DNA from: Bacteroidales bacterium
GTDB taxonomy: Bacteria; Bacteroidota; Bacteroidia; Bacteroidales; Bacteroidaceae
DNA: 50,974 nucleotides
Assembly (NCBI GenBank): GCA_015060835.1
Contig: SUXT01000008.1
Location: forward strand, 1 to 50,974
Direction: 5' to 3'
Numbering within the stretch: the first letter of the stretch is position 1; every line of letters begins with the position of its first letter. Under the pieces are notes generated by a model. It was not told the DNA's origin, made no database searches, and worked only from the letters and a program-made list of their open reading frames with translations. Positions 2,611 to 34,721 of this stretch are shown here, in pieces. A program made the translations under genes and the position numbers.

Positions 2611-3873
2611 CTAAATTATTTTGAGCGTTACCTCTTCTATACGGGTGCTGCGGGTTTTTTGTATCTTGAACTGGAATTTGTCAATGGTTATTGTTTCGTT
2701 GACCTTTGGGAAGCTTTGGTGATAGGAGAGTATCATGCCTCCGATGGTCTGGTAGTCGTCGGATTCGGGGAGTTCGAGATCGAAAAGTTCGTTGATTCTT
2801 TCAATTTCGAGACGGCCTGATAACTTGTATTCGTTTTCACCTATTTTTTTTGCTTCGTAGTTTGTGTTGTCGTGCTCATCCTCTATTTCGCCGATGATCT
2901 CTTCGAGCAGGTCTTCGAATGAGATTATTCCCAATGTTCCACCGAATTCATCCACTACTGCTGCGAGGGTCTTTTTCTCTTGCATGAGCTTGTGCATGAG
3001 CTTTTGCGCCGAGAGGGTTTCGGGGACAATCGGCATCCTGCATATCTGTTTTTGCCATTGGCGGGCATTGCGGAAGAGCTCAGACGAGTGTATGTAGCCG
3101 ATGATGTTGTCGATGTTGTCTTTGTAGACTATGATTTTGGAGTGTCCCGATTCGATGAACTGTTTTTTGAGTTCTTCGAGTTTGGTGGTTACGTCGACCG
3201 CGCAGATTTCTGTGCGGGGCACGACGCAGTCGCGTACCTTTATTTCGGAAAAGTCGAGGGCGTTCTGGAATATTTTTACATCGTTGTCGATGGTCTCTTC
3301 ATCATCCTTTGCGTTTTCTATGGAACTTTGGATGAGGTGCGTCAGCTCCATTTTGCTGAATGTGGTGTCGCGTGTCTCCTTGTTTATTTTTACATTGAAC
3401 ATGCGCAGTATCTGGCATGATATCCATGTGGTGAATTGTGCAAGAGGGTATAGTATTACGTAGAATAGGAACGCGGGGATAGCGAGGCTTTTAACCGTGC
3501 TGTTGGGGTCGATGCGAAAAAGGGTTTTGGGGATGAATTCGCCGGTGATTATGATTACGATGGTGGATATGATGGTTTGTAATGTCAGTTGCGCTGAGGG
3601 GGTATCGTTCAGTGTCGCGAGAATGGTGTGGTTGAGGAGGTTGGCCATCAGGATACCGTAGATTACAAGCACGATGTTGTTGCCTACGAGCATACTGGAT
3701 ATGTAGTTGTTGCTGTTGCGGTAGAATCTGTCGAGTATGCGCGAGGTTATGGTGTTGTTGTTTATATCAATCTCCATGCGGAATCTGTTGGATGCCACAA
3801 ATGCTATTTCCATACCAGAGAAAAAGGCGGAGAAGATAACTACTATGATGATTTGTATGATGATGGTTGTCAT
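2611..3873 (-). CDS. CNNM/CBS-pair/CorC-HlyC domain membrane protein (hemolysin-related family)
   Basis: The 420-aa protein begins with a DUF21/CNNM transmembrane domain (about residues 1-190, with helices at the N-terminus and near 55-160). A pair of CBS domains follows (about 212-335; VRDCVVPRTEI opens the first), then a C-terminal CorC/HlyC domain (about 345-420). Proteins of this build are inner-membrane, nucleotide-sensing ion-transport proteins. CorC-type members are linked to magnesium and cobalt efflux, and the name hemolysin is historical. The start codon directly follows the lptC stop codon, so the two are cotranslated. In Bacteroidales this family is often found beside lptC, as here. 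The transported ion cannot be told from sequence. Confidence 0.92.
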   Translation of the reverse strand: MTTIIIQIIIVVIFSAFFSGMEIAFVASNRFRMEIDINNNTITSRILDRFYRNSNNYISSMLVGNNIVLVIYGILMANLLNHTILATLNDTPSAQLTLQTIISTIVIIITGEFIPKTLFRIDPNSTVKSLAIPAFLFYVILYPLAQFTTWISCQILRMFNVKINKETRDTTFSKMELTHLIQSSIENAKDDEETIDNDVKIFQNALDFSEIKVRDCVVPRTEICAVDVTTKLEELKKQFIESGHSKIIVYKDNIDNIIGYIHSSELFRNARQWQKQICRMPIVPETLSAQKLMHKLMQEKKTLAAVVDEFGGTLGIISFEDLLEEIIGEIEDEHDNTNYEAKKIGENEYKLSGRLEIERINELFDLELPESDDYQTIGGMILSYHQSFPKVNETITIDKFQFKIQKTRSTRIEEVTLKII

Positions 3874-8595: not shown

Positions 8596-9098
8596 AGAAG
8601 CTGTTTGAATTTTATTGGAAAATATTACTGTCCGGTAAACGTATTTAAGTCGTTTAAAATTCAATATTTAAGTAGCTACAAGCCACATTCTTTATGAAGA
8701 CAAATTTAAGTCAATGATTGGAACTCCCTCGCCCTGCTAAGCCTCACAAGCTCGGCACTCCTTCTATATAACAAAATGCTAAACCGCTGTGCTATAGAGT
8801 TTTTCGTTAAGCATATTCAATGTTCATTTTTGTTATTTTCTATTCATTTTGAGGCACGGCAATTCGGTACTTTGGAAAGCTAAAGCTTTCGTCGTCGCAA
8901 ACATTGCTTATTACGCAATGTCCCTCTTCAATAGAGGGAGAATGTCGTATATTAGTAATTTTCAGGAATTTACATTCCTCCTCTTGAAGAGGAGGTGGAT
9001 TCAAAAACTTGTTTTTGAAGACGGAGGAGTTCAAAACATAAGCAGAATAAAAATTAACCGGACACTAATAATTCCAAAATAAAATTCAAACAGCTTCT
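8596..9098. repeat. Family 2 foldback remnant (2a) split by a family 1 element
   Basis: The left arm AGAAGCTGTTTGAATTTTAT (from 8596) and right arm ATAAAATTCAAACAGCTTCT (ending 9098) are the two ends of the family 2 element seen whole at 14330-14518 and 23846-24034. Removing the family 1 element and one copy of its 9-bp flank leaves a roughly 46-bp palindrome. So the target was a minimal, end-to-end form of family 2 and the insertion hit the tip of its hairpin. Confidence 0.7.
8623..9070 (+). mobile_element. Family 1 MITE-like element, copy A (448 bp)
   Basis: The ends are inverted: TATTACTGTCCGGTAAA at left and the reverse complement of TATTAGTGTCCGGTTAA at right. It has no coding capacity worth calling. 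The interior is a chain of small palindromes: GAAAGCT/AGCTTTC, ACATTGC/GCAATGT, CCTCCTCTT/AAGAGGAGG and TTCAAAAAC/GTTTTTGAA. The 9-bp flanks are ATTGGAAAA (8614-8622) and ATTCCAAAA (9071-9079), a 7/9 match that looks like an aged or altered target duplication. This is the longest of the six copies. Confidence 0.82.
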
Positions 9099-12900: not shown

Positions 12901-13563
12901 TTACCCCTCGAAAATGCTTGAACCTATGCGCACGCAGGTGCTTCCGCACTCCATTGCCATGAGGTAGTCGCCGCTCATTCCTGCCGACAGTGTGTCAAAC
13001 TCCTTGTCGTCGGCGAACCATCTGTCGCGTATTTCGTCGAACAATGCTCTTACGGCTCTGAATTCAGCTGCTACGCGGCTGTTGTCGTCGGTGTTGCTCG
13101 CCATGCACATCAGACCTCTGATTTTTACATTTTCGAGTTTCTTCCACTCCTCTTGTTTCAGCATGGCCAAACACTCTTCGGGAGTGAATCCGAATTTTGT
13201 CTCCTCCTCGGCTATGTGTATCTGCAACAGGCAGGGGATTGTGCGGCCGGCCTTTGCAGCATGCTTGTTTATCTCCTCCAGCAGTTGGTAGGAGTCTACG
13301 CTGTGTATCATGTAGATGAACGGCGCAATGTATTTTATCTTGTTGCGCTGCAGGTGTCCTGTGAAGTGCCACCTTATATCTTTGGGCAGGCTCTGTTGTT
13401 TGACTACAAGGTCTTGTGCCTTGTTTTCGCCAAAATCCAACTGTCCAGCATTGTAGGCCTCTGCAATGGCTTCTGCGGGGTGGTATTTCGATATTGCAAC
13501 CAACCGCACACCTTCGGGGATGGTGGCGAGTGTCGCTTTCAACCTTTCTGTGATGCTGCTCAT
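12901..13563 (-). CDS. YggS-family pyridoxal-phosphate homeostasis protein
   Basis: The 220-aa protein is an alanine-racemase-fold PLP carrier. VAISKYHPAE (about residues 21-30) holds the PLP lysine. DFGENKAQDL, WHFTGHLQRNK and the C-terminal phosphate-binding region (MSGDYLMAMECGSTCVRIGS) are all family landmarks. These proteins buffer free PLP and influence amino-acid and vitamin B6 balance in the cytoplasm; they lack racemase activity. It is 15 bp downstream of the DUF4494 gene, a pairing common in Bacteroidales, so the two are probably cotranscribed. Confidence 0.93.
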   Translation of the reverse strand: MSSITERLKATLATIPEGVRLVAISKYHPAEAIAEAYNAGQLDFGENKAQDLVVKQQSLPKDIRWHFTGHLQRNKIKYIAPFIYMIHSVDSYQLLEEINKHAAKAGRTIPCLLQIHIAEEETKFGFTPEECLAMLKQEEWKKLENVKIRGLMCMASNTDDNSRVAAEFRAVRALFDEIRDRWFADDKEFDTLSAGMSGDYLMAMECGSTCVRIGSSIFEG

Positions 13564-13578
13564 CTTTGATTGTTGTTC

Positions 13579-14019
13579 TTAAATAGCCTCGTATTGGAAG
13601 ATGTCTACAATGGGGCTGTTGTTCACCGATGTAAGCTCGTAATCCATCACTGATGACTTCATGTGTATGTTCAGGCGGCTGATGGCATCGGGCACGCTCT
13701 CGGCCTTAACCAGCAGGAGTACGGGAGTCTTCTTCTCCTTTGCGCTTGCCTCGTCGATGGTTACAAGCACTATCTTGCATTTGTACCATTTGTCGGCAGT
13801 CTCGTCCTGTGTGTCAACAATTTCGCCGTACTTCACACGCTTCATTTCGTTGATGTTGAACTCGCCTGTAACGAAAGGCTGAAGCTCCAATGTGAGGCGC
13901 TTCTCCACGCTCTTGAAGGTAAAATCCTTCATCAGGTACGATTCGTTTACTTTGGTATTTGTTCCTTTGTCGCCGGGGCGCTCGTATGTTACTTTACATT
14001 CAAACCAGCTTTCTAACAT
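13579..14019 (-). CDS. DUF4494 family protein
   Basis: The 146-aa protein opens MLESWFECKVTYE and matches the small DUF4494 family that is widespread and almost confined to Bacteroidota. It has no signal peptide or membrane segment. The function is unknown. The conserved pairing with the YggS gene hints at a link to PLP or amino-acid metabolism, but that is inference. Transcription may come from its own -7 box (14058-14065) or from the promoter inside the family 2 element upstream. Confidence 0.88.
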   Translation of the reverse strand: MLESWFECKVTYERPGDKGTNTKVNESYLMKDFTFKSVEKRLTLELQPFVTGEFNINEMKRVKYGEIVDTQDETADKWYKCKIVLVTIDEASAKEKKTPVLLLVKAESVPDAISRLNIHMKSSVMDYELTSVNNSPIVDIFQYEAI

Positions 14020-14057: not shown

Positions 14058-14065
14058 CAAAGTTA
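14058..14065 (-). promoter_or_regulatory. Candidate native -7 box for the DUF4494-YggS operon
   Basis: The minus strand reads TAACTTTG, 38 bp before the ATG. The family 2 element 2b begins at 14077, only 11 bp further upstream, so the native -33 region has been replaced by element sequence. No TTTG is present there at 19-21 bp spacing. Confidence 0.5.
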
Positions 14066-14076
14066 GTAAGAAATTT

Positions 14077-14329
14077 AGAAACTGCTTTAATTTTATTTCG
14101 GATTTATTTGAGAACTGTTATTAAGTAGATTTTCTTTCGCATTTTGCAGGTAATAGTGGGCTATTCCCAAAAAATAAGAAAGAAAAGATGCCAAAGTTGC
14201 GATTAAACGAGCGCAATGTGAACTTGTTCACAAATTGCTAAGCGAGTGAAAGCAACTTCAATAACATTAAAACAGACTCAAAGAAACCGAAATAATCTCG
14301 CAAACATAGATACATTTTCCAATAAAATT
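14077..14329 (+). mobile_element. Family 2 foldback element 2b with an internal palindromic insert
   Basis: The left end AGAAACTGCTTTAATTTTAT and right part TTTTCCAATAAAATT match the family 2 ends, but the last ~12 bp at right are missing where copy 2c begins. The central hairpin is slightly imperfect (GGTAATAG against CTATTCCC). About 65 bp not found in 2c or 2d sit inside it, bounded by AAGTTGC and GCAACTT and holding GCAATGTGAAC/GTTCACAAATTGC. The minus-strand -7 box survives (TATGTTTG, 14301-14308), but its -33 partner was lost at the 2c junction. Confidence 0.75.
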
Positions 14330-14518
14330 AGAAGTTGTTTGAATTTTATTTCGGAATTATTTGAGAGGTATTTTGAGTAGATTTTTTTTATTGTTTTGCA
14401 GGGAATAGCAGGCTATTTCCAAAAAACAAGAAATAAAATATGCCAAAATAGACTCAAATAAGCCGAAATGAACATCGCAAATATAGAATTATTTTTCAAT
14501 AAAATTCAAACAGCTTCT
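14330..14518 (+). mobile_element. Family 2 foldback element 2c (189 bp, complete)
   Basis: The 189-bp length is identical to copy 2d at 23846-24034, which is its near-exact reverse complement. The ends are AGAAGTTGTTTGAATTTTAT and ATAAAATTCAAACAGCTTCT. The whole element folds on itself around GGAATAGC-AG-GCTATTTCC. It lies head-to-tail with 2b. It has no coding capacity, and it carries a promoter on the minus strand (see 14478-14510). Confidence 0.85.
14478..14510 (-). promoter_or_regulatory. Complete promoter inside element 2c, reading toward DUF4494
   Basis: On the minus strand TTTG (14507-14510) is followed after exactly 21 bp by TATATTTG (14478-14485). This is a textbook Bacteroidota -33/-7 pair. 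The -33 is part of the terminal inverted repeat. The transcript would run through 2c and 2b into the DUF4494 gene at 14019. Confidence 0.65.
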
Positions 14519-14619
14519 TAAAACAGTTTCTTATCTTTCCGTTTCTCTTTTTACTATTTTTTGCCGATTTTTTCCGAGATATTTTCCTCTGCCGCTCTTT
14601 TGCTGTATCTTCGCGGATG

Positions 14620-14637
14620 AAAATTTAAACAGCTTCT
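14620..14637. repeat. Solo family 2 end just before the permease start codon
   Basis: AAAATTTAAACAGCTTCT matches the right end of family 2 with one change and stops one base before the ATG at 14639. The stretch 14519-14619 is AT-rich, not repeated elsewhere in the window, and contains TATCTTCG (14606-14613), a possible weak -7 box for the permease gene. Confidence 0.55.
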
Positions 14638-14638
14638 A

Positions 14639-15877
14639 ATGAGTTTCGAATTTTTTGTAGCGCGTCGTCTCTTTGTTACCCAAAAGGGTGAGAAGAGAAT
14701 TTCCAAACCTGCTGTGCTTATTGCGCAGTGGGGTGTTGCTGTCGGTATATTGGTAATGATTCTTTCGGTGTGCATCGTCGTGGGCTTCAAGCATAGCGTC
14801 AGGGAGAAGATAGTCGGTTTCGGACAGCACATTCAGGTGCGCAACTACGAGGGTACCATGTATGGCGAATCGCCTGTTACGGCCCGCGATTCTCTGCTTG
14901 CCGCTCTTGCAGCACTTCCCGGAGTGCACAATGTGCAGAAGTATGTGCAGAAACCTGGGCTTATTGCCGTCGGCGATGAATTTGACGGCATTATGCTGAA
15001 GGGAGTGGGTGCAGATTACGACTTTTCGTTTTTTGCAGAGTACTTGAAAGAGGGAGAGATTCCACAGTTCGGCGACACTGCCGCGTCGGGTAGTGTGCTT
15101 CTCTCCAAGGCTCTTGCCGACAGAATGCAGATAAAGACCGGCGACAAGGTCAATGTCTACTTTGTGCAAACGGGAGTGAAGGCCCGCCGTTTCACTGTCA
15201 AAGGGTTATACGAGACCAATCTGTCGGAAATGGACAATGTGATTGCCCTGACCGATATTTACACCGTCCGCCGCCTGAATGGTTGGGAAAGCGATAAATG
15301 TACCGGAATAGAGGTCTCTGTCTCCGACTATGAATCGTTGGAGAGTGTGCGCGACACTGTGGCTGCGGTGATGGATGCCGAGGCTGCAATGAATTACGAA
15401 AAACTTTATGTGCAGACGGTGGAGGAGATGAATCCCGCCCTTTTTGCCTGGCTCGATATTCTCGATGGCACTGTGTGGGTGATTCTTGTGCTTGTGCTTG
15501 GCGTTGCGGGTTTTACAATGATTTCGGGACTGCTTATCCTTATTCTCGAAAAGAGCAACCTCATTGGTGTGCTCAAGGCTGTCGGTGCCGGAGATGCTTC
15601 CATTCGCGGCATATTCCTCTATTATGCAATGCTCATCATAGGGCGTGGAATGTTATTGGGCAATTTCATTGCCCTCGTGCTCTGTTTGGTGCAACACTAT
15701 TACGGTGTTGTGAAACTCGATGCCGAAATGTATTATATGGATAGGGTACCTGTGGAGTTTACATGGTGGCTGGTGCCGCTGAATATTGCCATGTTTGCGC
15801 TATCTACGGCAATGCTTGTGTTGCCCTCGATGCTTATTGCGAGGATTGAGCCTACTAAGGCTATCAGGTTCGAGTAA
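14639..15877 (+). CDS. LolC/LolE-type ABC transporter permease (FtsX family)
   Basis: The 412-aa protein has the MacB/LolC layout: an N-terminal membrane helix (about residues 26-50), a large periplasmic domain (about 50-270), and three C-terminal helices (about 280-305, 330-355 and 375-400). An IEPTKAIRFE-type tail is usual for LolC/E. These permeases extract lipoproteins from the inner membrane for transport to the outer membrane. The ATPase (LolD) is not adjacent, so assignment to lipoprotein release rather than another FtsX-type role is likely but not proven. In Bacteroidota the subunits are often scattered. Confidence 0.88.
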   Translation: MSFEFFVARRLFVTQKGEKRISKPAVLIAQWGVAVGILVMILSVCIVVGFKHSVREKIVGFGQHIQVRNYEGTMYGESPVTARDSLLAALAALPGVHNVQKYVQKPGLIAVGDEFDGIMLKGVGADYDFSFFAEYLKEGEIPQFGDTAASGSVLLSKALADRMQIKTGDKVNVYFVQTGVKARRFTVKGLYETNLSEMDNVIALTDIYTVRRLNGWESDKCTGIEVSVSDYESLESVRDTVAAVMDAEAAMNYEKLYVQTVEEMNPALFAWLDILDGTVWVILVLVLGVAGFTMISGLLILILEKSNLIGVLKAVGAGDASIRGIFLYYAMLIIGRGMLLGNFIALVLCLVQHYYGVVKLDAEMYYMDRVPVEFTWWLVPLNIAMFALSTAMLVLPSMLIARIEPTKAIRFE

Positions 15878-15892
15878 AGGGGAATTGTATGT

Positions 15893-16267
15893 TTATATGT
15901 GGAATATATTTCTAGTTATTCCCCATAAAAAATAGATTGCTATATATGAGTAGATGGAGTACCTGTTAAGCAGAAATTTTTCCAGTGTCTCTGCTATTTT
16001 CCCGTTGAAGCATTTTGCATAAATAATTCCGGAAAAATAGGGTATTGCGAATGCAAGGAAAGGATTGTAATGGAATGCTTTGACAAATTCGCCATTAAGA
16101 ACAGAATGCAATGCCCTCTGCGTTCCGCATGAGGGGCATTGCAAACCTGTTAAATTAAAGAATAAACATTTTGGAAACCATGCATTCGTTTCAGGATCGG
16201 AAATTACATATATTGTCAATACAATCGCTAAAGCCGAAATAGTAAGGATTTTCCACTTTATATTCAT
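15893..16267 (-). CDS. DUF2752 family small membrane protein
   Basis: The 124-aa protein has the DUF2752 signature: a first helix, then LQCPSCGTQRALHSVLNGEF with its C-P-x-C-G motif and conserved arginine, then FHYNPFLAFAIPYF. Two more hydrophobic segments follow. The function is unknown; it is an inner-membrane protein. I prefer the ATG at 16267 (MNIKWKIL), 20 bp after the stop of the upstream gene; an in-frame ATG at 16291 would overlap that gene by 4 bp. It ends convergently 15 bp from the permease gene with no clear terminator between them. Confidence 0.85.
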   Translation of the reverse strand: MNIKWKILTISALAIVLTIYVISDPETNAWFPKCLFFNLTGLQCPSCGTQRALHSVLNGEFVKAFHYNPFLAFAIPYFSGIIYAKCFNGKIAETLEKFLLNRYSIYSYIAIYFLWGITRNIFHI

Positions 16268-16287
16268 CTTAGAAAGGGTTATTATAG

Positions 16288-16908
16288 TCAAATTTCTGCG
16301 TATATGGTGATACCGGTATTAGCCTTAATCAAATATTTAGCATCATCAAATATGTAGATATTATATTTTTTATCTTCTTCGTCGTAGTATTCTGAAAAAT
16401 CCTCGCTTCCTGCAAATGTGCCGTCAATCATGTAATATCTGATTTTGTAATCATATTTTTCGTAATCATTCTCACGACTGTATTCGTAATCTATACGGTA
16501 ATCGGTATTTACAAAAAATTCGGCCCCTTGTTTATTGATTCCTATATACCAGGATGGGTCATAACCGGATTTCACCAATGCTTGTCCGGTATTATCGTGT
16601 ACTCCCCAGTTAGATGATATAATATATCCGTTGTTATACGACCGGAAATTGAATCTATAAGATTGTATGCCAAATGATGCAATCAGACTTAGAATACATG
16701 GAGCAATTATACTGAAACGTATATATTTGTCATCTGTTGCCAAATTAGTTATTAATATTACAATTGCAATTAGTGTTAGTCCAATTACAATTGACAACAT
16801 TGTAGGGGATGCATCAAAGAATGATGCAATCAACGGATATATGAATATGCTTAGAATAATTCCTAATATTGATATAATGACCGTGAATATTAAAATTGCA
16901 ATCTTCAT
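16288..16908 (-). CDS. Uncharacterised membrane protein between CD225 and DUF2752 genes
   Basis: I do not recognise the family. The 206-aa protein has three predicted membrane helices in the first half (about residues 4-28, 38-58 and 66-84). A soluble second half follows, rich in tyrosine, aspartate and glutamate (about 85-206), with no cysteine motif. Base composition is more AT-rich than the flanking housekeeping genes. Its place between a CD225 and a DUF2752 gene on one strand suggests a joint membrane function. Confidence 0.75.
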   Translation of the reverse strand: MKIAILIFTVIISILGIILSIFIYPLIASFFDASPTMLSIVIGLTLIAIVILITNLATDDKYIRFSIIAPCILSLIASFGIQSYRFNFRSYNNGYIISSNWGVHDNTGQALVKSGYDPSWYIGINKQGAEFFVNTDYRIDYEYSRENDYEKYDYKIRYYMIDGTFAGSEDFSEYYDEEDKKYNIYIFDDAKYLIKANTGITIYAEI

Positions 16909-16956
16909 AAGGATAAAAAAAATACGTGTGTTTTTGTAGACTTAAGTTCAACTCTA

Positions 16957-17433
16957 TCATCCAAGGAATCCGCCAATAAAGCCAATAATGAAACTGACTA
17001 TACCGAGTCCCAATGAAATGATGCACCATGTTTTGGCTTGTTCCGAACTCTTTATAGCTCCGGCTTTGTCGCCTTGTGCCCACAACTTCTCTACTTTGCT
17101 GGAATATATAATTGCAGCAATACCTGTGGGCAAACAGCATAACAAGGTGGATAGTATGGCAGGAATCATATAGTTTTGTGGACATTGATTGCCTGCAAAA
17201 TTTGGATTATAGGGTGTTGATGGCGATTGAACAGGAGTTACAGGCGGAACCGGTGGATTATTGTATGTATTAAACAATGGTTTCAATTCTTGAACATCTC
17301 CGGCTTTTTCCCAATTTCTCATTCCCTTGCACCATACATAAGTGTCTTTTGTTACTCCTACATTTATAAGGTTATCTTTTGTGGTAGGACCTGATTGCTG
17401 TCCGGCAGCATTTAAATAATAATAAGAATTCAT
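16957..17433 (-). CDS. GYF_2-CD225/dispanin two-domain protein
   Basis: The 158-aa protein starts with a GYF_2 (DUF4339) domain, about residues 3-55 (YYYLNAAGQQSGP, then YVWCKGMRNWEKAGDV). A proline-rich linker follows (VPPVTPVQSPSTP), then a CD225/dispanin domain with two membrane helices (about 82-105 and 130-155; YMIPAILSTLLCCLPTGIAA). CD225 is the domain of interferon-induced transmembrane proteins, and bacterial members have no settled role. GYF_2 domains are thought to bind proteins. The gene heads a small minus-strand cluster and has a -7 box at 17463-17470. Confidence 0.9.
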   Translation of the reverse strand: MNSYYYLNAAGQQSGPTTKDNLINVGVTKDTYVWCKGMRNWEKAGDVQELKPLFNTYNNPPVPPVTPVQSPSTPYNPNFAGNQCPQNYMIPAILSTLLCCLPTGIAAIIYSSKVEKLWAQGDKAGAIKSSEQAKTWCIISLGLGIVSFIIGFIGGFLG

Positions 17434-17462
17434 GTGTAGTTGTTTTATAATAATAGTTTCTG

Positions 17463-17470
17463 CAAAAATA
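17463..17470 (-). promoter_or_regulatory. Candidate -7 box for the CD225 cluster
   Basis: The minus strand reads TATTTTTG, 29 bp before the ATG at 17433. A TTG lies 22 bp further upstream (17493-17495), slightly beyond the usual spacing for the -33 element. Confidence 0.5.
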
Positions 17471-17582
17471 TAAAATAATGATTTATAATCTCCAATATTT
17501 CATTAAATTTTCACCAAAATTTTTAAAAAAAATCGATAATGGTTTTTGTATATTATTTCTTTAACCCCTCGGCATTGATTAT

Positions 17583-17942
17583 ATGCGCCGTTATAGATTC
17601 GACGACAGCGATACGATAGAGAGAATAACCGGTGTGCCTTGCCCCGAGTTTAGGGTTGTCGAGTATGAAATGGGTGGTAGCAGTTTCAATGGCGACTATG
17701 ATGATTTTCTGATTGTGGAATTTGAGCAGATGCCGACGAAGGAGTTTTATCAGGTATTGGACAGTCTTGTAAAAGCAGAAGGCAGTTATTGGAACTGTAA
17801 TAATGGGGAGTATCATTACAGCCGAATGTGGGGCAATGGCATGCCGGCTCCCGAGGGTGAGGATGACAATGAGGATATGTCGTTGAGTTTCACAATGAAG
17901 AGAGGAGAAAATAGAGCGGAGATCAGATATGGGGCATGGTGA
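17583..17942 (+). pseudogene. Probable C-terminal remnant of an unidentified protein
   Basis: There is an open frame of 119 codons from ATG 17583, but the frame stays open only back to a stop at 17562. There is no signal peptide or promoter box near the start, and the protein begins abruptly inside what reads as a domain (RRYRFDDSDTIERITGVPCP). Composition is protein-like (acidic, aromatic, balanced), unlike chance frames. It is most easily explained as the end of a larger gene whose beginning was lost, though a short real gene cannot be excluded. The flanks 17471-17582 and 17943-18023 are AT-rich with no other feature. Confidence 0.45.
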
Positions 17943-18023
17943 TATTTGTGTGTAGCATAGGGTTACAACACACTTATGCAAAAAAAAGTTTTCAAAAGGG
18001 GGCATTTATTCGATATTTTGTTT

Positions 18024-18031
18024 TATTTTTG
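18024..18031 (+). promoter_or_regulatory. Candidate -7 box for the porin-pot operon
   Basis: TATTTTTG is an exact TAnnTTTG, 127 bp before the porin ATG at 18158. The leader is long (about 120 nt) and could carry regulation, but I see no riboswitch I can name. No -33 match is visible. Confidence 0.45.
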
Positions 18032-18157
18032 TCCGCGAAATTGTGGTTGTGAGTTCGTTGTTAAGCGAGTCTTGTAGCCGCATTTTTTTTACAAAAACCG
18101 CAAATTAAAGTGAAATATTAAAATATACTCTTATGTAATTAAACTTTTTACTGCTTA

Positions 18158-19303
18158 ATGAAGAAACTCTTAACCTTTTTGGGGGTCATATTTTTTATGG
18201 CCGGTTCCACAGTTTGGGCGCAGGAAGTTAATAGTAGTGCGACGCTGTCCGGAACCTCTTCCGTAGAGGATATAACTGTGAAAAATGATGCGGAAGGAGG
18301 AACTCAGATTTCTCTTGATACGCGATTTGGTTATGAACATCAGTCATCCGGTAAAAGGGCCGGGTTTGGTGGTGATAGTTTCCTGTTGAACATTGACGGT
18401 AAAATAGGCAAGCGATTTTCGTATAGTCTTAATCACTCTCTTGTGTCGCCTGCCGGTGAAAATTCAACAATTTTTGATGCTACAAGATGGCTTACGCTGA
18501 GCTACGAATTGGGCAACTTTACCTTTACTGCTGGTAAGGATGCACTGATGGTGGGTAGTTTCGAGTACGACGCCTATGAACTTGATTGTTATTACGAGAT
18601 GGGCTCCATGTTCAACTACAATATGAACTGTTGGCTGTGGGGCGCGTCGGCTATGTGGACCAACAATGCCGAGACTTCGTCGTTTGCTTTCCAGGTGGCC
18701 AATTCTCCATTTGCATTTGTTCCTAAGGATGATAATCTCTTCGCATACGGCCTGGGGTGGTATGGCATGTGGGATAACTACGAGTCTATCTGGACGGTGA
18801 ATATGATGGAGTATGAGCCGGGTAAGTTCGTCAAGATGCTGGCATTGGGCAATATGTTCTACTTGGGTGATTTTGAACTTATGTTAGACTACATTGCCCG
18901 TACATCTGATTTGAGCAAAGGCTTAGGCAAGGATTATACTCTCACTGTGCAGCCTGCATATAACTTTGGCGAGTCGTTGCGTCTGTTCGGTCGTTTCGGT
19001 ATTGAGAAAACAGATGATGATGTTCCGTACGACTTTCTTGGCGAGTATCTCTCTGTAGAGGATAAAGTGCTTGCCAATGAGGAGAATGAGTATGTTATGC
19101 CTGCATATATAGCCAATGGCAAGGAGTATATCTACTATGGCGCAGGTTTGGAGTATTTCCCATTGAAAGAGAATAAAGGTATTCGCATTCACGCAGCGTG
19201 GGCATCGAACAACTATACTAAGCGTCATATGATAAACGTAGGACTTACTTGGAAATTCGATGTGGTAGGTGCCATCAGATTTTTGGCCAACGAGGCAAAA
19301 TAG
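18158..19303 (+). CDS. Outer-membrane porin linked to the polyamine transporter genes
   Basis: The 381-aa protein has a signal peptide (residues 1-21, ending TVWAQ) and a long run of alternating beta strands with aromatic girdles (DTRFGYEH, FSYSLNHSLV, WLTLSYELGNFTFTAGKDAL). It resembles the phosphate-selective porin O/P type of barrel. The stop is 39 bp before potA on the same strand, with no terminator in the gap. This suggests it is the outer-membrane entry pore for the substrate of the PotABCD system; that link is inference from the operon. Confidence 0.82.
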   Translation: MKKLLTFLGVIFFMAGSTVWAQEVNSSATLSGTSSVEDITVKNDAEGGTQISLDTRFGYEHQSSGKRAGFGGDSFLLNIDGKIGKRFSYSLNHSLVSPAGENSTIFDATRWLTLSYELGNFTFTAGKDALMVGSFEYDAYELDCYYEMGSMFNYNMNCWLWGASAMWTNNAETSSFAFQVANSPFAFVPKDDNLFAYGLGWYGMWDNYESIWTVNMMEYEPGKFVKMLALGNMFYLGDFELMLDYIARTSDLSKGLGKDYTLTVQPAYNFGESLRLFGRFGIEKTDDDVPYDFLGEYLSVEDKVLANEENEYVMPAYIANGKEYIYYGAGLEYFPLKENKGIRIHAAWASNNYTKRHMINVGLTWKFDVVGAIRFLANEAK

Positions 19304-19342
19304 TTAACAGTTTTATTTATCCCGATTTATTTAGATTAAGAA

Positions 19343-20725
19343 ATGAAAGATTCAAATTTCATCATCGAGTTAAGTCATATTTCAAAGAGTTTTGACGATA
19401 AACAGGTTTTGGATGATGTTAGTTTGTTTGTGAAGAAGGGCGAGTTTGTAACTATTCTTGGTCCTTCGGGTTGTGGTAAGACTACGTTGTTGCGTATCTT
19501 GGCCGGATTTGGCACTGCCAACAAGGGTGAGATAAAGATTGCGGGCGAGGATATTACTATGGTTCCGCCGCACGAGCGTCCTGTGAATACTGTCTTCCAG
19601 CGATATGCGCTCTTCCCACACCTTAATGTATACGACAATATAGCCTTTGGCCTGAAATTGAAAAAGGTGAAGGAGGATGAGATTGAGGCGCGTGTGAGAA
19701 AGGCATTGAAGATGGTGGGTATGACCGACTATGAGTGGCGCGATGTGAACTCTCTCTCGGGTGGTCAGCAGCAGCGTGTGGCTATTGCGCGTGCCATCAT
19801 CAACCGTCCGCAGGTGTTGTTGCTGGACGAGCCGTTGGCTGCGCTCGACCTGAAAATGCGCAAGGATATGCAGATGGAACTTAAGGATATGCACAAGACG
19901 CTGGGTATCACTTTTATATATGTAACACATGATCAGGAGGAGGCACTCACGCTCAGTGACACCATTGTTGTAATGAGCGAGGGACGTGTTCAGCAGATTG
20001 GTACGCCTACCGATATATATAATGAGCCTGTAAACTCTTTCGTAGCCGACTTCATTGGCGAGAGTAACATCTTGAACGGTATTATGGTGCATGACCGCTT
20101 GGTTCGTTTTATGAATCGCGACTTCGAGTGTGTTGATGCCGGTTTTGGCGAGAATGCTCCGGTGGATGTCGTTATTCGCCCGGAGGATGTTTACATAATG
20201 GCGAAGTGTGCTTCGGGTATGTTCGAGGGCGTTGTGCAGTCGTGCATATTCAAAGGTGTGCACTATGAGATGATTGTGCTTACTCCCGATGGTTATGAGA
20301 TTATGATTCAGGATTATAATGCCTTCGAAGTGGGACAGGAGGTGAGCCTCATTGTAAAGCCTTCGGATATTCATGTAATGCAGAAGGAGCGCATTACAAA
20401 TACCTTCGAGGGTACTATGGTCGATGCTACCCATATAAATATTCTCGGTACGCAGCTTGTATGCAACGAGCAGCCTGATGTGACGGGCGGCGAGAAGATA
20501 GAGGTTGAGGTTGACTTCGATAAGATTGAGCTTATGGACAACAAGGAGGATGGTATGTTGGTTGGCGACGTGCGCTTTATCCTCTATAAAGGCGACCACT
20601 ATCATTTGACTGTGCGCACAGAGGGTGGTGACAATATCTATGTAGATACACACGATGTGTGGGATGACAGAGATATTGTGGGTGTGAAGATTCAGCCCGA
20701 CGATATGCGGATCAAGAGAGTATAA
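19343..20725 (+). CDS. potA: Spermidine/putrescine ABC transporter ATP-binding protein
   Basis: The 460-aa protein has an N-terminal ABC ATPase: Walker [10 protein letters not shown] (about residues 40-48), signature [14 protein letters not shown], Walker B VLLLDEP and switch histidine THDQEE. TOBE-type regulatory domains follow (about 240-460). It is longer than typical PotA (about 380 residues) because of an extended C-terminal part with what looks like a second TOBE unit (about 355-460). It powers uptake through PotB and PotC. The Q-loop region reads [10 protein letters not shown], with R where most PotA have S. The next gene starts 21 bp downstream. Confidence 0.95.
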
Positions 20726-20746
20726 CAACTTAACAGATAGTGTGAT

Positions 20747-21544
20747 ATGAAGTGGTTGTTAAGGTATTTTATGAAGAGAAGTAATTGGAGTATTCCTTAC
20801 TTTATATTCTTGATAATTTTTGTGGCGGTGCCGTTGGTGCTTATCTTCCTGTATGCATTTCAGGATGCTGACGGTAACTTCACTCTCTCCAATTTTGCTA
20901 AATTTATTTCAAGCCCCGAGGCGGCCAATACCTTTGTCTATTCAATAGGTGTGGCCATAGTAACCACGGTGCTCTGTATTCTGCTGGGTTACCCTGCGGC
21001 TTATATTCTGAGCAACTCGGAACTGTGTCGATCTAAGGTGATGGTTGTGCTCTTTATCCTTCCGATGTGGATTAACATCCTTGTGCGTACGCTGGCTACA
21101 GTGGCATTGTTCGACTTCTTGCGTCTGCCGCTGGGCGAGGGTGCTTTGATATTCGGTATGGTGTATAACTTCCTGCCTTTTATGATTTACCCCATCTACA
21201 ATGTTATGCAGAAGATGGATCATAGCTACATTGAGGCGGCGCAGGACTTGGGTGCCAACCCTATGACGGTGTTCCGTAAGGTTGTGGTGCCGTTGTCGAT
21301 GCCCGGTGTGATGAGTGGAGTGATGATGGTATTTATGCCAACAATCTCTACATTCGCCATTGCCGAGTTGCTGACAATGAACAATATAAAACTGTTTGGT
21401 ACAACCATTCAGGAGAATATAAATAACGGAATGTGGAACTATGGCGCTGCCTTGTCGCTCATTATGTTGGTGATTATCTTTGCCACCAACCTGTTTAGCG
21501 ATGACGGCGAGGAGGGTGCTTCAAATGAGGGAGGAATCATCTGA
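20747..21544 (+). CDS. potB: Spermidine/putrescine ABC transporter permease PotB
   Basis: The 265-aa protein has six predicted membrane helices and the permease EAA motif that docks on the ATPase (YIEAAQDLGANPMTVFRKVV, about residues 161-180). It partners with PotC in the inner membrane. Its TGA stop shares a base with the ATG of potC (TGATG), so the two subunits are translationally coupled. The 39-residue N-terminus includes a basic stretch (MKRSNWS) usual for this subunit. Confidence 0.94.
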   Translation: MKWLLRYFMKRSNWSIPYFIFLIIFVAVPLVLIFLYAFQDADGNFTLSNFAKFISSPEAANTFVYSIGVAIVTTVLCILLGYPAAYILSNSELCRSKVMVVLFILPMWINILVRTLATVALFDFLRLPLGEGALIFGMVYNFLPFMIYPIYNVMQKMDHSYIEAAQDLGANPMTVFRKVVVPLSMPGVMSGVMMVFMPTISTFAIAELLTMNNIKLFGTTIQENINNGMWNYGAALSLIMLVIIFATNLFSDDGEEGASNEGGII

Positions 21545-22341
21545 TGAAAAGATTTTTTGCTCAGGCCTATTTGTGGCTTCTTTTGGCTATGCTCTATGCG
21601 CCGATTCTTATTATTGCTGTATTCTCTTTTACTGAGGCGAAGGTGCTTGGTAACTGGACGGGCTTCTCGACCAAGTTATACACCTCCCTGTTCTCAGGCG
21701 GTGTGCATCACTCTCTGTTGAGTGCCATAGAAAATACGCTCATAATTGCTTTTGTGGCTGCTGCTGCATCTACTATGCTGGGTAGCGTTGCTGCTGTGGG
21801 AATACATAAACTGTATGGTCGCAAGAAGATGGTAATGAATACTTTGAATAATCTTCCGATGCTTAATCCCGATATTATTACAGGTATATCATTGTTCCTT
21901 TTGTTCGTGAGTATTGGAGTTACTCAGGGTTACACGACTGTTATCCTGGCACATATCACATTCTGCACCCCATACGTTGTGCTGTGTGTCTTGCCGCGTC
22001 TGCAACAGATGAATCCCAATATCTATGAGGCTGCATTGGACTTGGGTGCCACTCCTGCGCAAGCGCTGCGTAAGGTTATCATCCCTGAGATTAAGCCGGG
22101 TATGATCAGTGGCTTCATCCTTGCTTTCACTCTCTCTATTGACGATTTCGCTGTAACTATTTTTACCATTGGAACTGAGGGACTTGAAACCCTTTCGACA
22201 TACATCTATGCTGATGCCCGCAAGGGTGGTCTCACTCCTGAGTTGCGCCCGCTGTCGACGATTATCTTCGTTACGGTGCTGGTGTTGTTGATTGTAATAA
22301 ATGTGCGCTCACAACGCGCTAAAAATAATAAACAAGCATAA
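21544..22341 (+). CDS. potC: Spermidine/putrescine ABC transporter permease PotC
   Basis: The 265-aa protein has six predicted helices and an EAA loop (YEAALDLGATPAQALRKVII, about residues 161-180). The start of the mature fold (LLAMLYAPILIIAVFSF) and the DDFAVTIFTIG segment are typical of PotC. It overlaps both neighbours by one base (TGATG before, TAATG after), giving near-equal synthesis of the transporter parts. Confidence 0.94.
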   Translation: MKRFFAQAYLWLLLAMLYAPILIIAVFSFTEAKVLGNWTGFSTKLYTSLFSGGVHHSLLSAIENTLIIAFVAAAASTMLGSVAAVGIHKLYGRKKMVMNTLNNLPMLNPDIITGISLFLLFVSIGVTQGYTTVILAHITFCTPYVVLCVLPRLQQMNPNIYEAALDLGATPAQALRKVIIPEIKPGMISGFILAFTLSIDDFAVTIFTIGTEGLETLSTYIYADARKGGLTPELRPLSTIIFVTVLVLLIVINVRSQRAKNNKQA

Positions 22342-23654
22342 TGAAACAACTGTTTTATATACTCTTTGCGGTATTTGCCGTGATTTGTACGGGCTGTTCG
22401 CATGACGATTCCCGAAAGTCAATACTCAAAGTATACAATTGGGCCGACTATATCGACGAGTCGCTGCTGTCCGAGTTTGAGAAATGGTACTACGAACAGA
22501 CCGGCGAAGAGGTTACTGTTGTATATCAACTATTTGATATCAACGAGATTATGCTTGCCAAGATTGAGCGCGGCAAGGAGGATTTCGATGTGGTATGCCC
22601 CTCGGAGTATATCATTGAGCGTATGCTCAAGAACGATTTGCTGTTGCCTATAAACAAGGATTTTGGCAATACTCCCAACTATTTGGGCAATGTCTCGCCA
22701 TTTATCCACGATGTCTTCGACAAGATTGACGGCGGCGGTAAGAATGCCAATGACTACTCTGTCGGTTATATGTGGGGTACCACAGGTTTCCTTTATAATA
22801 CGAAGTATGTTACACGCGAGGAAGCAAGCACATGGACATCGCTGTGGAATAAGAAGTTCGACAAGAAGCTGCTTATCAAGGATGCTTTCCGCGATGTATA
22901 TAGTCCGTTGTTGATTTACGCCAATCAGGAGCGTATTGCTGCGGGTGAGGTTACATTGGATGAACTGATGCACGATGCTTCGGACGAGTCTATCGCTGTT
23001 GTGGAGGCTCTTTTGAAGAAGGCGAAGCCTTACGTTGCCGGCTGGGAGGCTGACTTCGGCAAGGAGGTTATGACCAAGGAGAAGGCGTGGCTAAACCTCT
23101 CATGGAGCGGAGATGCTGCGTGGGCTATCGAAGAGGCCAATGCGGTGGATGTGAAGTTGGACTATGTTGTCCCCAAAGAGGGTAGTATCATGTGGTTCGA
23201 CGGCTGGGTTATCCCTAAGTATGCAAAGAATATCAAGGCTGCATCGTACTTCATTAACTTTATGTGTATGCCCGAGAATGCCATCCGCAACATGGACGAG
23301 ATAGGCTATGTGAGTGTAATCGGTACTGAAGATGTAATGGAGTATATGTCCGAGTCGGCTGTGGAGGCCGGTTATAAGGAGCCTATGGATCTTACCTACT
23401 TCTTTGGTGAGGGTGCCGATAGCGTGGTAATAAACTCTGTGATGTATCCCGACCGCGAGGTTATCGAGCGCTGTGGCATGATGCACGACAGCGGCCCGCG
23501 TACCGAGGCTATGCTGGCTATGTGGTCGAGAGTAAAGGGCGACAACCTCAATAACTGGATGGTGGTGGTGATTTTTGCGGCCTTTGGTTTGCTGTTGGTT
23601 GCGGGCGTTATGCGCAAGATGAAAAAACGTCGCCAGCGTTGTCGCAGATGGTAG
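22341..23654 (+). CDS. potD: Spermidine/putrescine-binding lipoprotein PotD with an extra C-terminal membrane helix
   Basis: The 437-aa protein has a lipoprotein signal peptide (lipobox ICTGC at about residue 19). A PotD-type solute-binding domain follows (KVYNWADYIDESLLSEFEKW at the start; aromatic pocket residues such as WSGDAAW). Polyamine-binding PotD proteins are about 350 residues. Here the domain is followed by a hydrophobic helix at about 405-422 (WMVVVIFAAFGLLLVAGVM) and a very basic tail (KMKKRRQRCRRW). The protein would therefore be tethered to the inner membrane at both ends. The substrate (putrescine, spermidine or another cation) is not determined by sequence alone. Confidence 0.93.
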   Translation: MKQLFYILFAVFAVICTGCSHDDSRKSILKVYNWADYIDESLLSEFEKWYYEQTGEEVTVVYQLFDINEIMLAKIERGKEDFDVVCPSEYIIERMLKNDLLLPINKDFGNTPNYLGNVSPFIHDVFDKIDGGGKNANDYSVGYMWGTTGFLYNTKYVTREEASTWTSLWNKKFDKKLLIKDAFRDVYSPLLIYANQERIAAGEVTLDELMHDASDESIAVVEALLKKAKPYVAGWEADFGKEVMTKEKAWLNLSWSGDAAWAIEEANAVDVKLDYVVPKEGSIMWFDGWVIPKYAKNIKAASYFINFMCMPENAIRNMDEIGYVSVIGTEDVMEYMSESAVEAGYKEPMDLTYFFGEGADSVVINSVMYPDREVIERCGMMHDSGPRTEAMLAMWSRVKGDNLNNWMVVVIFAAFGLLLVAGVMRKMKKRRQRCRRW

Positions 23655-23678
23655 GATGTAAGCAGATATAATTTTAGT

Positions 23679-23718
23679 ACATGGGAACTTTTGATGATAT
23701 TTCATAAAGTTCCCATGT
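23679..23718 (+). terminator. Stem-loop terminator after potD
   Basis: Arms ACATGGGAACTTT (23679-23691) and AAAGTTCCCATGT (23706-23718) form a 13-bp perfect stem, starting 25 bp after the potD stop and followed by TTCTTA. It separates the transporter operon from the glutamine-synthetase-family gene. The stretch 23719-23845 is AT-rich with no recognisable feature. Confidence 0.75.
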
Positions 23719-23845
23719 TTCTTATAATGGTTTTGCAATAATTTTACTCCTCTTCTCTGTTACTTACAAAAATTATTATATCTTTGTCGTTTGACTTGCA
23801 ATTTGTATTGTAGAATTGCAGTTGTTTTTACATAATGATAAATTT

Positions 23846-24034
23846 AGAAACTGTTTGAATTTTATTAGAAAATAATACTATATTTGCGATGTTCATTTCG
23901 GCTTATTTGAGTCTATTTTGGCATCTTTTCTTTCTTATTTTTTGGAAATAGCCCGCTATTCCCTGCAAAATAATAAAGAAAATCTACTCAAAATATCTCT
24001 CAAATAATTCCGAAATAAAATTCAAACAGCTTCT
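23846..24034 (-). mobile_element. Family 2 foldback element 2d (189 bp, complete)
   Basis: This is a near-identical, inverted copy of 14330-14518. The ends are AGAAACTGTTTGAATTTTAT and ATAAAATTCAAACAGCTTCT, and the central hairpin is GGAAATAGC-CC-GCTATTCC. It ends 16 bp before the start codon of the glutamine-synthetase-family gene, so it forms that gene's whole upstream region. It carries a plus-strand promoter (23854-23886). Confidence 0.85.
23854..23886 (+). promoter_or_regulatory. Complete promoter inside element 2d, reading into the glutamine-synthetase-family gene
   Basis: TTTG (23854-23857) is followed after exactly 21 bp by TATATTTG (23879-23886). These are the same bases and spacing as in copy 2c. 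The predicted RNA starts near 23893 and would carry the element's hairpin as a roughly 155-nt 5' leader. No other promoter is visible between the potD terminator and the gene. Confidence 0.65.
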
Positions 24035-24050
24035 TAATAAAATTAGTAAT

Positions 24051-25553
24051 ATGAATTGTGAATTGGATATGAACCCTAATAGGGTGGTGGCTTTCCTTGG
24101 CAAACCTTGCAAGGAATTTACTAAGGCCGACATTGTGCGTTACATCAGAGAGAATGGAATAAGAATGGTGAATTTCATGTATCCTGCGGGTGACGGCCGT
24201 CTGAAGACTCTTAATTTCGTGATAAACAATGCAGCGTACCTCGATGCTATACTCACCTGCGGTGAGCGTGTCGACGGTTCGAGCCTTTTCCCCTTCATTG
24301 AGGCGGGCAGCAGTGACCTTTATGTGTTGCCGCGTTTCAGCACAGCATTCCTCGACCCGTTTGCTGAGATTCCTACGCTTTCGATGCTCTGTTCTTATTT
24401 CAATAAGGATGGCGAGCCGCTTGAAAGTTCTCCCGAAAATACTTTGCGCAAGGCCTGCAAGGCATTCAATGAGGTTACCGGTATGGAGTTCCAGGCAATG
24501 GGCGAGCTTGAGTATTATGTGATTGCACCAGATGAGGGTACTTTCCCCGCTACTGACCAGAAGGGTTACCATGAGTCGGCTCCCTATGCCAAATTCAATG
24601 AGTTCCGCACACAATGTATGGCTTATATTGCTCAAGCAGGCGGACAGATAAAATATGGACACTCAGAGGTTGGTAATTTTACTATCGATGGTCTTATCTA
24701 TGAGCAGAATGAGATTGAGTTCCTGCCTGTTGCGGCTACCGATGCAGCCGACCAGCTGATGGTAGCCAAGTGGATTATACGCAATCTGGCATACCGCATG
24801 GGTTACGATATTACTTTTGCTCCCAAGATTACTGCGGGAAAGGCCGGTTCGGGATTGCATGTGCATATGCGCATTGTGAAGGATGGCAACAATCAGATGC
24901 TCGACGGTGGTGTGCTCTCTGCAACCGCACGCAAGGCTATTGCAGGTATGATGGAGCTTGCTCCTTCGATAACAGCCTTTGGAAATACCAATCCTACATC
25001 ATACTTCCGCCTTGTTCCTCATCAGGAGGCTCCCACAAATGTCTGCTGGGGCGACAGAAACCGTTCGGTGCTTGTCAGAGTTCCCCTCGGCTGGGCTGCC
25101 AAGAGCGACATGTGCAAGATTGCCAACCCGCTTGAGGCTGAGAGCAATTATGATACAACACAGAAGCAGACTGTGGAGATGCGTTCTCCCGATGGCTCGG
25201 CCGATGTTTATCAGTTGATAGCCGGTCTTGCGGTTGCTTGTCGTCACGGCTTTGAGATTGAGAATGCACTGGAACTTGCCGAAAAGACTTATGTAAATGT
25301 GAATATCCACAAGAAGGAGAATGAAGACAAACTGAAGACACTTGCCCAGCTTCCCGACAGTTGCGAGGCTTCGGCCGATTGCCTTGAGCGTCAGCGTGCT
25401 GTCTTTGAGCAGTATAATGTCTTCAGTCCTGCGATGATTGATGGTATTATCAAGCGTCTGCGCTCATACGGCGACAGGACTTTGCGCAGCGAGATTGAAG
25501 GCAATCAGGAGGAGATGCTCAAATTGGTGAACAAATATTTCCATTGCGGATAA
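24051..25553 (+). CDS. Glutamine synthetase family protein (GlnA or gamma-glutamyl-polyamine synthetase type)
   Basis: The 500-aa protein has an N-terminal beta-grasp domain (about residues 25-110). The catalytic domain shows metal-site glutamates in GELEYYV and EIEFLPVAA, the ATP-site motif GSGLHVHM, NPTSYFRLVPHQEAP, the arginine-rich NRSVLVRVP and EMRSPDGSADVY. These enzymes join ammonia or an amine to the gamma-carboxyl of glutamate using ATP. It could be an ordinary type I glutamine synthetase. It follows the polyamine transporter genes, and PuuA-type enzymes of this family glutamylate putrescine, so a polyamine role is possible. Sequence alone does not decide. Its promoter appears to come from element 2d. 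Confidence 0.87.
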   Translation: MNCELDMNPNRVVAFLGKPCKEFTKADIVRYIRENGIRMVNFMYPAGDGRLKTLNFVINNAAYLDAILTCGERVDGSSLFPFIEAGSSDLYVLPRFSTAFLDPFAEIPTLSMLCSYFNKDGEPLESSPENTLRKACKAFNEVTGMEFQAMGELEYYVIAPDEGTFPATDQKGYHESAPYAKFNEFRTQCMAYIAQAGGQIKYGHSEVGNFTIDGLIYEQNEIEFLPVAATDAADQLMVAKWIIRNLAYRMGYDITFAPKITAGKAGSGLHVHMRIVKDGNNQMLDGGVLSATARKAIAGMMELAPSITAFGNTNPTSYFRLVPHQEAPTNVCWGDRNRSVLVRVPLGWAAKSDMCKIANPLEAESNYDTTQKQTVEMRSPDGSADVYQLIAGLAVACRHGFEIENALELAEKTYVNVNIHKKENEDKLKTLAQLPDSCEASADCLERQRAVFEQYNVFSPAMIDGIIKRLRSYGDRTLRSEIEGNQEEMLKLVNKYFHCG

Positions 25554-31830: not shown

Positions 31831-32100
31831 TATTGGTGTCCGGTAAACGTATTTAATTCTTTTAAAATTCGATATTTAAGTTTGTATAAGCCCCAATTCA
31901 TTATTAAGACAAATTTAAGTCAATGATTGGAACTCCCTCGCCCTGCGGGCACTCCCTCTTCAAGAGGGAGAATGTCGTATATTAATAATTTTCAATGATT
32001 TACATTCCTCCTCTTGAAGAGGAGGTGGATTCAAAAACTTGTTTTTGAAGACGGAGGAGTTCAAAACATAAGCAGAATAAAAATTAACCGGACACTAATA
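31831..32100 (+). mobile_element. Family 1 MITE-like element, copy D (270 bp)
   Basis: The ends are TATTGGTGTCCGGTAAA and the complement of TATTAGTGTCCGGTTAA. The interior matches copies A and C: the CCCTCGCCCTGCGGGCACTC module, a CCTCCTCTTGAAGAGGAGG palindrome and the TTCAAAAAC/GTTTTTGAA hairpin. The 9 bp before it (TTGCGGAAA) do not recur after it or after D'. So the original target duplication has been lost by recombination or deletion. Confidence 0.85.
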
Positions 32101-32453
32101 TTTTAAAATTCGATATTTAAGCTTGTATAAGCCCCTATCCCTTTTTTGATACAAATTTGAGTGCAATGGTTTAAACTCCTCCTCTTGGATAAGAGGAGGT
32201 GGATTCAAACGCAAAAGCGTTTGAAGACGGAGGAGTTTGAAACTATTGCTTGTGTTATTATTCAAACTCCCTCCCCCGTTCTAAGCCTCACTTTACGTTC
32301 GGCACTCCTTTGGGGAGCTAAAGCTCCCGTCGTCGCAAACATTGCTTATTACGCAATGTCCCTCTTATCCAAGAGGGAGAGTTGTTAACCTTGTTTTTGA
32401 AGACGGAGGAGTTCCAAAACATCAGCAGAATAAAAATTTACCGGACAGCAATA
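32101..32453 (+). mobile_element. Family 1 MITE-like element, copy D' (353 bp), left end deleted
   Basis: It begins at TTTTAAAATTCGATATTTAA, which in copy D lies about 29 bp inside the left end, so the left terminal repeat is missing. The right end is intact (TTTACCGGACAGCAATA). It holds the changed but still pairing hairpin TTCAAACGC/GCGTTTGAA (32204-32225). It ends one base before the stop codon of the minus-strand DUF2147 gene. Confidence 0.8.
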
Positions 32454-34380: not shown

Positions 34381-34420
34381 ATCTGCTCTTCTTTGCGAGG
34401 TTTTGCGGTGTAAAATAAAA

Positions 34421-34721
34421 ATGATTATGCGATATTATACCTAAAAGTACGACCCCGTCCTTCAATGGATAAAAAACTATTCTAAAAAGTTCCTGCCCTT
34501 AAAGGGGAGGTGGATTCAAAAACAATAGTTTTTGAAGACGGAGGGGTTCTCCTTCGTAGCATGGGCTATTGCTATTATATGTGTAAAGAACCCCCTCCGA
34601 ACTTTTTCTATAGAAATAGTTCTCGTCCCCCTTAAAGAGGGACAACTTTTCAAGTTACTTATTTCCAACAACATTGCAATGCAACATTCTACTTTATGTA
34701 ATATATTTGATAATAATAAAA
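34421..34721 (+). repeat. Family 3 inverted-repeat element 3b (301 bp)
   Basis: The left end ATGATTATGCGATATTATAC resembles the complement of the right end (ATGATTATCAAATATATTAC in copy 3a, slightly changed here), giving imperfect terminal repeats of about 20 bp. The interior has the core shared with family 1: GGAGGTGGATTCAAAAAC, AATA, then GTTTTTGAAGACGGAGG. It lies between the MATE gene and the rpiB terminator and fills the 401-bp gap. Copies 3a (41-130) and 3c (50563-50803) also lie against terminators. Confidence 0.75.

Follow-up and report, generated by a model that had tools for sequence, protein, structure and literature searches.

A family of short repeated elements was analysed in a stretch of 50,974 nucleotides from a Bacteroidales bacterium of the Bacteroidaceae, probably an inhabitant of the gut (assembly GCA_015060835.1, contig SUXT01000008.1, positions 1 to 50,974), hereafter called the window. 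Two full copies of the element lie in the window, one beside a glutamine-synthetase-family (GS) gene and the other beside the genes for DUF4494 and YggS-like proteins. The element is a miniature inverted-repeat transposable element (MITE) of an IS5-type (transpos_IS5_3) element. We consider it probable that this non-autonomous foldback MITE is moved in trans by an IS5-family transposase, that it bears a promoter-like pair of boxes at the base of its hairpin and that it adds to older host promoters without replacing them. The strongest signal in the analysis is that the hairpin, and not the promoter, is the most strictly kept feature. An earlier reading of the same DNA, here called the original prediction, had described these copies as portable promoters with a hairpin leader; as a whole, that interpretation was partly supported.

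Anatomy of the two full copies

The element and its parts are placed in the window as follows.

23847..24033, plus strand: 187-bp foldback MITE with its promoter side on the left, recognised by its terminal repeats, TTA on both flanks and an empty site in the sister genome G175.
23854..23886, plus strand: promoter-like pair made of TTTG (23854-23857), 21 bp and TATATTTG (23879-23886).
23895..24016, plus strand: long hairpin, from folding and covariation, with an apical loop near 23952-23955 and a predicted transcript start (23890-23893) at its base.
14331..14517, minus strand: second full 187-bp copy with a TTA duplication, nested in the end of an older copy.
14478..14510, minus strand: promoter-like pair made of TTTG (14510-14507), 21 bp and TATATTTG (14485-14478).

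The two full copies, inverted relative to each other, are 93% identical and extend from GAAR to CTTC with a TTA target duplication on both sides. Their true length is 187 bp; the size of 189 bp given earlier had coordinates right to about one base and counted one flanking base on each side. The TTTG-21-TATATTTG pair was confirmed at its exact coordinates in both full copies, with a spacer of 21 bp in each, and the -33 TTTG lies within the terminal repeat as had been proposed. The starts expected near 23893 (plus) and 14471 (minus) fit the positions of the boxes. The -7 box sits in a stretch that is unpaired with the opposite arm, and the remainder of the element forms one long hairpin. Folding of the RNA from the predicted start gave -34.4 kcal/mol (z -6.4), a value reached by none of 200 shuffles and in agreement with the long foldback leader that had been expected after the boxes, and the whole element folded as DNA gave a z of -7.7. 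On the plus strand, the strict motif was found in 35 of 3000 dinucleotide-shuffled elements. The whole window contains three strict motifs, two of them in these elements, and one shuffle of the window contained two, so that the motif by itself carries little weight unless it stands in a repeat.

Two further elements of the window share these ends or this descent.

14078..14530, minus strand: older copy of the same family with two interruptions, the copy at 14331-14517 and a palindromic module (about 14193-14269).
8597..9097, no strand assigned: third element, alike in its ends and TTA duplications, whose interior comes from another repeat family.

The older copy, with TTA on either side (14075-14077 and 14531-14533), lost its -33 box to the nested insertion and has a -7 box that reads TATGTTTG. 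In the third element the replaced interior consists of family-1 (TGTCCGGTAAAC) modules, which suggests that ends and interiors recombine or nest; neither a match to the hairpin core nor a strict promoter was detected in it. Palindromic modules of about 60-75 bp occur inside longer copies at seemingly fixed places (window 14193-14269; loci L057, L051, L046 with three in tandem, and L044), as if small palindromic elements nested in the MITE and were amplified with it. Further repeat families, many of them palindromic, fill intergenic regions of the window, for example at 8933-9078, 31963-32108 and 34420-34553.

Mobility and relationship to IS5-family elements

The genome to which the window belongs is a draft of 2.64 Mb in 158 contigs, 86% complete. 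It contains 209 matches to the 20-bp terminal repeats at three mismatches or fewer (reversed control, 0), and the hairpin centre is matched at 66 places in it (none in the control). Target duplications were counted on 48 terminal-repeat pairs, from which eight overlapping or misread ones had been dropped beforehand; equal 3-bp TNA flanks were present in 32 of the remaining 40 copies (TTA 21, TAA 10, TCA 1). Duplications of TNA mark certain IS5 subgroups, and here they were seen directly on autonomous elements.

The ends of transposase-bearing elements were inspected at five of ten loci. In genome G070, an autonomous element of 0.9 kb with the ends GAAGCTGTTTAAATTT/GAAACTGTTTAAATTTTATT and TAA on both sides encodes an IS5-family transposase (NF033580, E 5e-65; PF01609, PF13340). 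Two elements in G149 and another in G013, each with an open transposase frame, have the ends GAAACTGTTTTGAATT/GAAGCTGTTTTGATTT; the flanks are equal in G149 (TAA and TGA) and unequal in G013. The fifth locus inspected, a fragment (L115), showed no such ends. Furthermore, a 213-bp deletion derivative in G119 has its first 30 bp in common with copies of the window's genome, such as C140:8255. In the 86% complete draft itself, neither a PF01609 match nor a match to the G070-type transposase could be detected. Given the ends shared with an autonomous IS5-family element of related genera, the TNA flanks and the missing transposase of its own, the element is classified as a MITE of an IS5-type element; the transposase itself appears to have been lost from this genome. 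Element and insertion sequence thus have their ends, their TNA target and their taxonomic family in common, whereas the window element encodes no transposase and the G070 element, at 0.9 kb, is too short to hold the hairpin core in addition to its transposase gene.

Locus L095 (genome G032, 1505-3648) holds two inverted-repeat elements of another type, with outer ends GAAACTGTTTAAATTT, inverted and about 2.1 kb apart, around two open frames. The plasmid collection gave no match to the element and the phage collection a single record, MT836387, at 68% identity. This record (MT836387.1, L111), a GenBank 'Bacteriophage sp.' scaffold from human faeces, bears two relatives of the element at 14-143 and 1526-1717, and may be bacterial DNA or a prophage border.

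The hairpin core and its covariation

A covariance model with 33 pairs was built from 20 sequences. Fifteen of the 33 pairs have changed on both sides, a number that none of 500 shuffles reached and that compares with 2-4 in slid controls. Matches to the model at E 0.001 or better were found in 53 of 201 genomes of the family and in 16 of the 30 genera sampled, with E-values that are rough and at most 17 candidates scored per genome. A second alignment of 32 rows was made of one copy from the window's genome and 31 of 41 relatives found with the model; three of the ten relatives left out (L317, L322 and L106) lack the apex. In this alignment 14 pairs in three helices were obtained with 96.1% of cells paired, the structure being predicted on the same alignment. 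Cells changed on both sides numbered 79 against 17.7 in shuffles (0/500 reach this value) and 5-18 in slid controls, while for the number of pairs with any double change, 10, 3 of 500 shuffles did as well or better. In exact form, the apex TAG..C.CTA occurs in 31 of the 32 rows and in 37 of the 41 relatives inspected, being absent from L317, L322, L394 and L106.

These results are in agreement with a second explanation, which we regard as a serious possibility although short of an even chance: the conserved hairpin would be functional in itself, as a site for RNase III or an RNA-protein contact or as a fold used in transposition, and the promoter would merely express it. In addition to the covariation, which no shuffle matched in either alignment, and to the apex, the occurrence of the core in more than half of the sampled genera, on elements with different ends, speaks for a functional hairpin. 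The same paired changes could nevertheless arise by correction between the arms of an inverted repeat. Such correction should also make the inner loops complementary, but no complementarity exists between the inner-loop words GGCATC and TCTACTC. On the other side, an exact match to these words is limited to 18 (GGCATC) and 12 (TCTACTC) of the 41 relatives, and the relatives were found by a model that includes the apex. Comparison of G-U with A-C cells speaks for RNA in one alignment (18 vs 8) but not in the other (11 vs 15, by eye). The copies in the window match no Rfam family: a scan of the window returned nothing except a tRNA, and a scan around the plus-strand copy only two matches with E of about 0.8.

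In some genera the members end, as judged by eye, in AGGTATGTTCTA.../...TAGAACATACCT or similar and not in GAAGCTGTTT..., so the hairpin core seems to outlive an exchange of ends. From this, a broader proposal may be put forward tentatively, as one that we hold to be rather doubtful: a hairpin module of about 120 nt, marked by the apex TAG-NNCN-CTA, by stems that covary and by inner loops that are kept in part, would spread through one large Bacteroidales family on MITEs with different terminal repeats, hence probably with different transposases. The module itself, as RNA or as folded DNA, would be under selection, and the promoter of the window's subfamily would be one way to express it.

Copy burst, empty sites and distribution

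Matches to the hairpin core number 66 in the window's genome and 76 in the sister species G175. The 42 other genomes compared within the genus have 0-5 each, with at least one match in ten of them. The copy burst is confined to the window's species and its sister. In G175, where the GS gene is 99.6% identical to that of the window, the site of the plus-strand copy is empty, with GATAAATTTA directly followed by ACAAAAG. G175 is also empty at the nested pair in front of the DUF4494 gene, and another copy of the family lies further upstream there. An exact pattern, GGCATCTTT-N16..24-TAGCYCRCTA, was found in one of 395 genomes of the phylum, namely the window's own. Five of these 395 belong to the same family, and one of them, G013, has model matches yet misses the pattern, which is thus too strict and uninformative on spread outside the family. 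Among 80 Bacteroidales loci around the GS gene, two weak matches were obtained (E 0.003 and 0.009). A leftover end of a terminal repeat occupies 14606-14640 of the window, just before a MacB/FtsX-like gene at 14639; the sister genome has a longer element at the same site (L268).

For the analysis of neighbouring genes, 126 copies were placed (66 from the window's genome and 60 of the 76 from the sister), and genes were called with a hexamer open-reading-frame scorer trained on 22 frames of the window. None of the 126 copies lies inside a called gene, and no called gene spans any of the 126 cores. This distribution would be expected of a neutral genomic parasite whose harmful insertions are lost, and a burst in only two sister species points in the same direction. 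On that view the boxes and the hairpin would be by-products inherited from a foldback ancestor rich in A and T, and selection would not act on any effect that they have on host genes. The covariation across genera and the nearly fixed apex nevertheless exceed what neutral drift would be expected to leave; a neutral parasite is, in our estimate, a fair possibility, if less likely than not.

Promoter-like boxes and neighbouring genes

The boxes follow the Bacteroidetes -7/-33 promoter consensus as given in two published accounts (PMC7366714; PMC9330008). In the explanation that follows from the original prediction, the promoter would be the selected function of the element and insertions would rewire the genes they face; we now judge this unlikely. 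It is consistent with the strict pair being intact in 28 of 42 aligned copies of the window's genome, so that the description as mobile elements with promoter-like boxes held, and in 61 of 97 left-ended copies of the two species (29 of the 126 copies have no left end). It also draws on BrickBuilt, a MITE of Porphyromonas gingivalis for which promoter activity was measured in E. coli reporters (PMC4596501).

The boxes had been expected to be better conserved than the rest of the element. Identity to the majority in the 42 copies was 95.8% for the -33 box, 96.0% for the left terminal repeat, 94.6% for the -7 box, 86-87% for the unpaired flanks and 98.3% for the hairpin centre. Deviations were counted over 74 gapless left ends of the two species, the other 23 of the 97 being left out because they were gapped or of another type. 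Of the cells of the -33 box 14/296 deviate, and of those in the rest of the terminal repeat 41/1184; special conservation of the -33 box was ruled out, since it is no better kept than the repeat in which it lies, and the repeat explains its conservation. The -7 box deviates in 29/592 cells against 202/1628 in the unpaired flanks (Fisher p 7e-8, with copies that are not independent) and, among 52 distinct sequences, in 27/416 against 168/1144. The expectation thus stood for the -7 box relative to the flanks and failed relative to the hairpin centre. There is moderate evidence that the -7 box is preferentially kept over the flanks, and no more than moderate because the copies share descent and the variation of the flanks comes largely from columns 21, 22, 43 and 48. 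The strict pair was also expected in other copies; it occurs in none of the 41 relatives inspected outside the two species, four of which have fewer than 62 bases upstream, and the -7 box alone occurs in four of the 41.

The proposal that the boxes face genes was reduced to a weak trend. Called genes lie within 600 bp on both sides of 61 of the 126 copies, with 25 copies directed along tandem genes, 14 against them, 17 at divergent and 5 at convergent sites. At tandem sites the promoter is thus directed along the genes in 25 of 39 cases (p=0.11), or in 13 of 18 for strict copies (p=0.10), which argues against a portable promoter. In favour of it, the gene downstream runs in the same direction as the promoter in 61 of 94 cases (p=0.005) and, for strict copies, in 30 of 41 (p=0.004); these counts are less informative as they mix in an excess of divergent sites. 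All of these p-values are optimistic, as the two species may share ancestral insertions.

The identities of the adjacent genes were confirmed by domain matches, and both genes next to the elements have older candidate boxes.

24051..25553, plus strand: glutamine-synthetase-family gene, downstream of the plus-strand copy (Gln-synt_N, Gln-synt_C).
23779..23786, plus strand: older -7-like box TATCTTTG of the GS gene, upstream of the insertion at a distance of 60 bases, with the same sequence in G175 and G170.
12901..14019, minus strand: DUF4494 and YggS-like genes (DUF4494; Ala_racemase_N for YggS).
14058..14065, minus strand: older -7-like box TAACTTTG, assigned to the DUF4494 gene; it lies on the gene side of the elements and is present in G175 as well.

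The insertion at the GS gene lies between the older TATCTTTG box and the start codon, with 17 bases between the end of the element at 24033 and the start codon at 24051. At the DUF4494 gene the insertion point is upstream of the older TAACTTTG box, which is found just downstream of the empty site in G175, and similar boxes were seen by eye at this position in many other members of the genus. As the -7-like boxes are present at the empty sites, both genes had candidate promoters before the insertions. Elements as the sole promoters of the two genes were therefore rejected, and the rewiring of these genes that had been put forward was not supported as stated. More generally, 30 of 60 codirectional copies have a further -7-like box (TAnnTTYG) in the gap that separates them from the start codon. 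Shuffled gaps contain such a box in 145 of 1200 cases, and this is a further point against a portable promoter.

Proposed mode of action

The explanation that we favour is a MITE that adds to existing promoters. An IS5-family transposase of the transpos_IS5_3 type, duplicating TNA, would move the element in trans, and the subfamily amplified in the window's species and its sister carries the -33/-7 promoter-like pair. An active pair would place the start of transcription at the foot of the hairpin, and the RNA would begin as a stem-loop of about 120 nt. At the GS gene the element lies within the 5' leader, and the hairpin would be included in full in any RNA started at the older promoter. The element would there probably affect the structure, stability or translation of the mRNA leader and provide an auxiliary start at most. 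At the DUF4494 gene the elements lie farther upstream than the older promoter and could be without consequence.

Several points weigh against this explanation. Eight of the 40 located copies lack equal 3-bp flanks, and with a draft that is 86% complete the transposase may sit in a gap. The junctions of the empty sites are known from one sister genome only. The older -7 boxes were identified by motif and conservation only, and that of the GS gene has no clear -33 TTTG. Finally, the promoters, those of the element and those of the host alike, are predicted from the sequence.

Comparison with known elements and significance

Several known repeats resemble the element. The Correia repeat enclosed elements of Neisseria have inverted repeats and more than 120 copies, can carry promoters and can bind or be cut by RNase III (PMC2649163); likened by description, they differ from the window element, whose boxes are of the Bacteroidetes -33/-7 type and whose hairpin covaries across genera. 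BrickBuilt is likewise a MITE of the Bacteroidota, always intergenic and with reported promoter activity (PMC4596501), but has 23-nt tandem repeats and bidirectional promoters, whereas the window element is a foldback of 187 bp whose promoter-like boxes lie on one side. PINSR of Prevotella intermedia is a lineage-limited repeat of 188 bp with 177 and 184 intergenic copies in two strains (PMC4755523); compared by description only, it differs in that its authors report no terminal inverted repeats. The element is not named in the text, figures apart, of the top-ranked literature retrieved.

Because MITEs that bear promoters are already known (Correia elements, PMC2649163; BrickBuilt, PMC4596501; reviewed in PMC10969869), the promoter alone would be a modest addition. 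The promoter claim is plausible, and the hairpin core appears to be the part worth pursuing; the covariance model and the pairs of empty and filled sites are now at hand for testing it. If the proposal is true, the hairpin core, maintained by paired changes, matched in 16 of 30 sampled genera, borne by elements that differ in their ends and without an Rfam counterpart for the window copies, would represent a structured element that is widespread and has no name as yet. As many copies stand in gene leaders and promoter regions, the hairpin would bear on how the transcripts of these genes are read.

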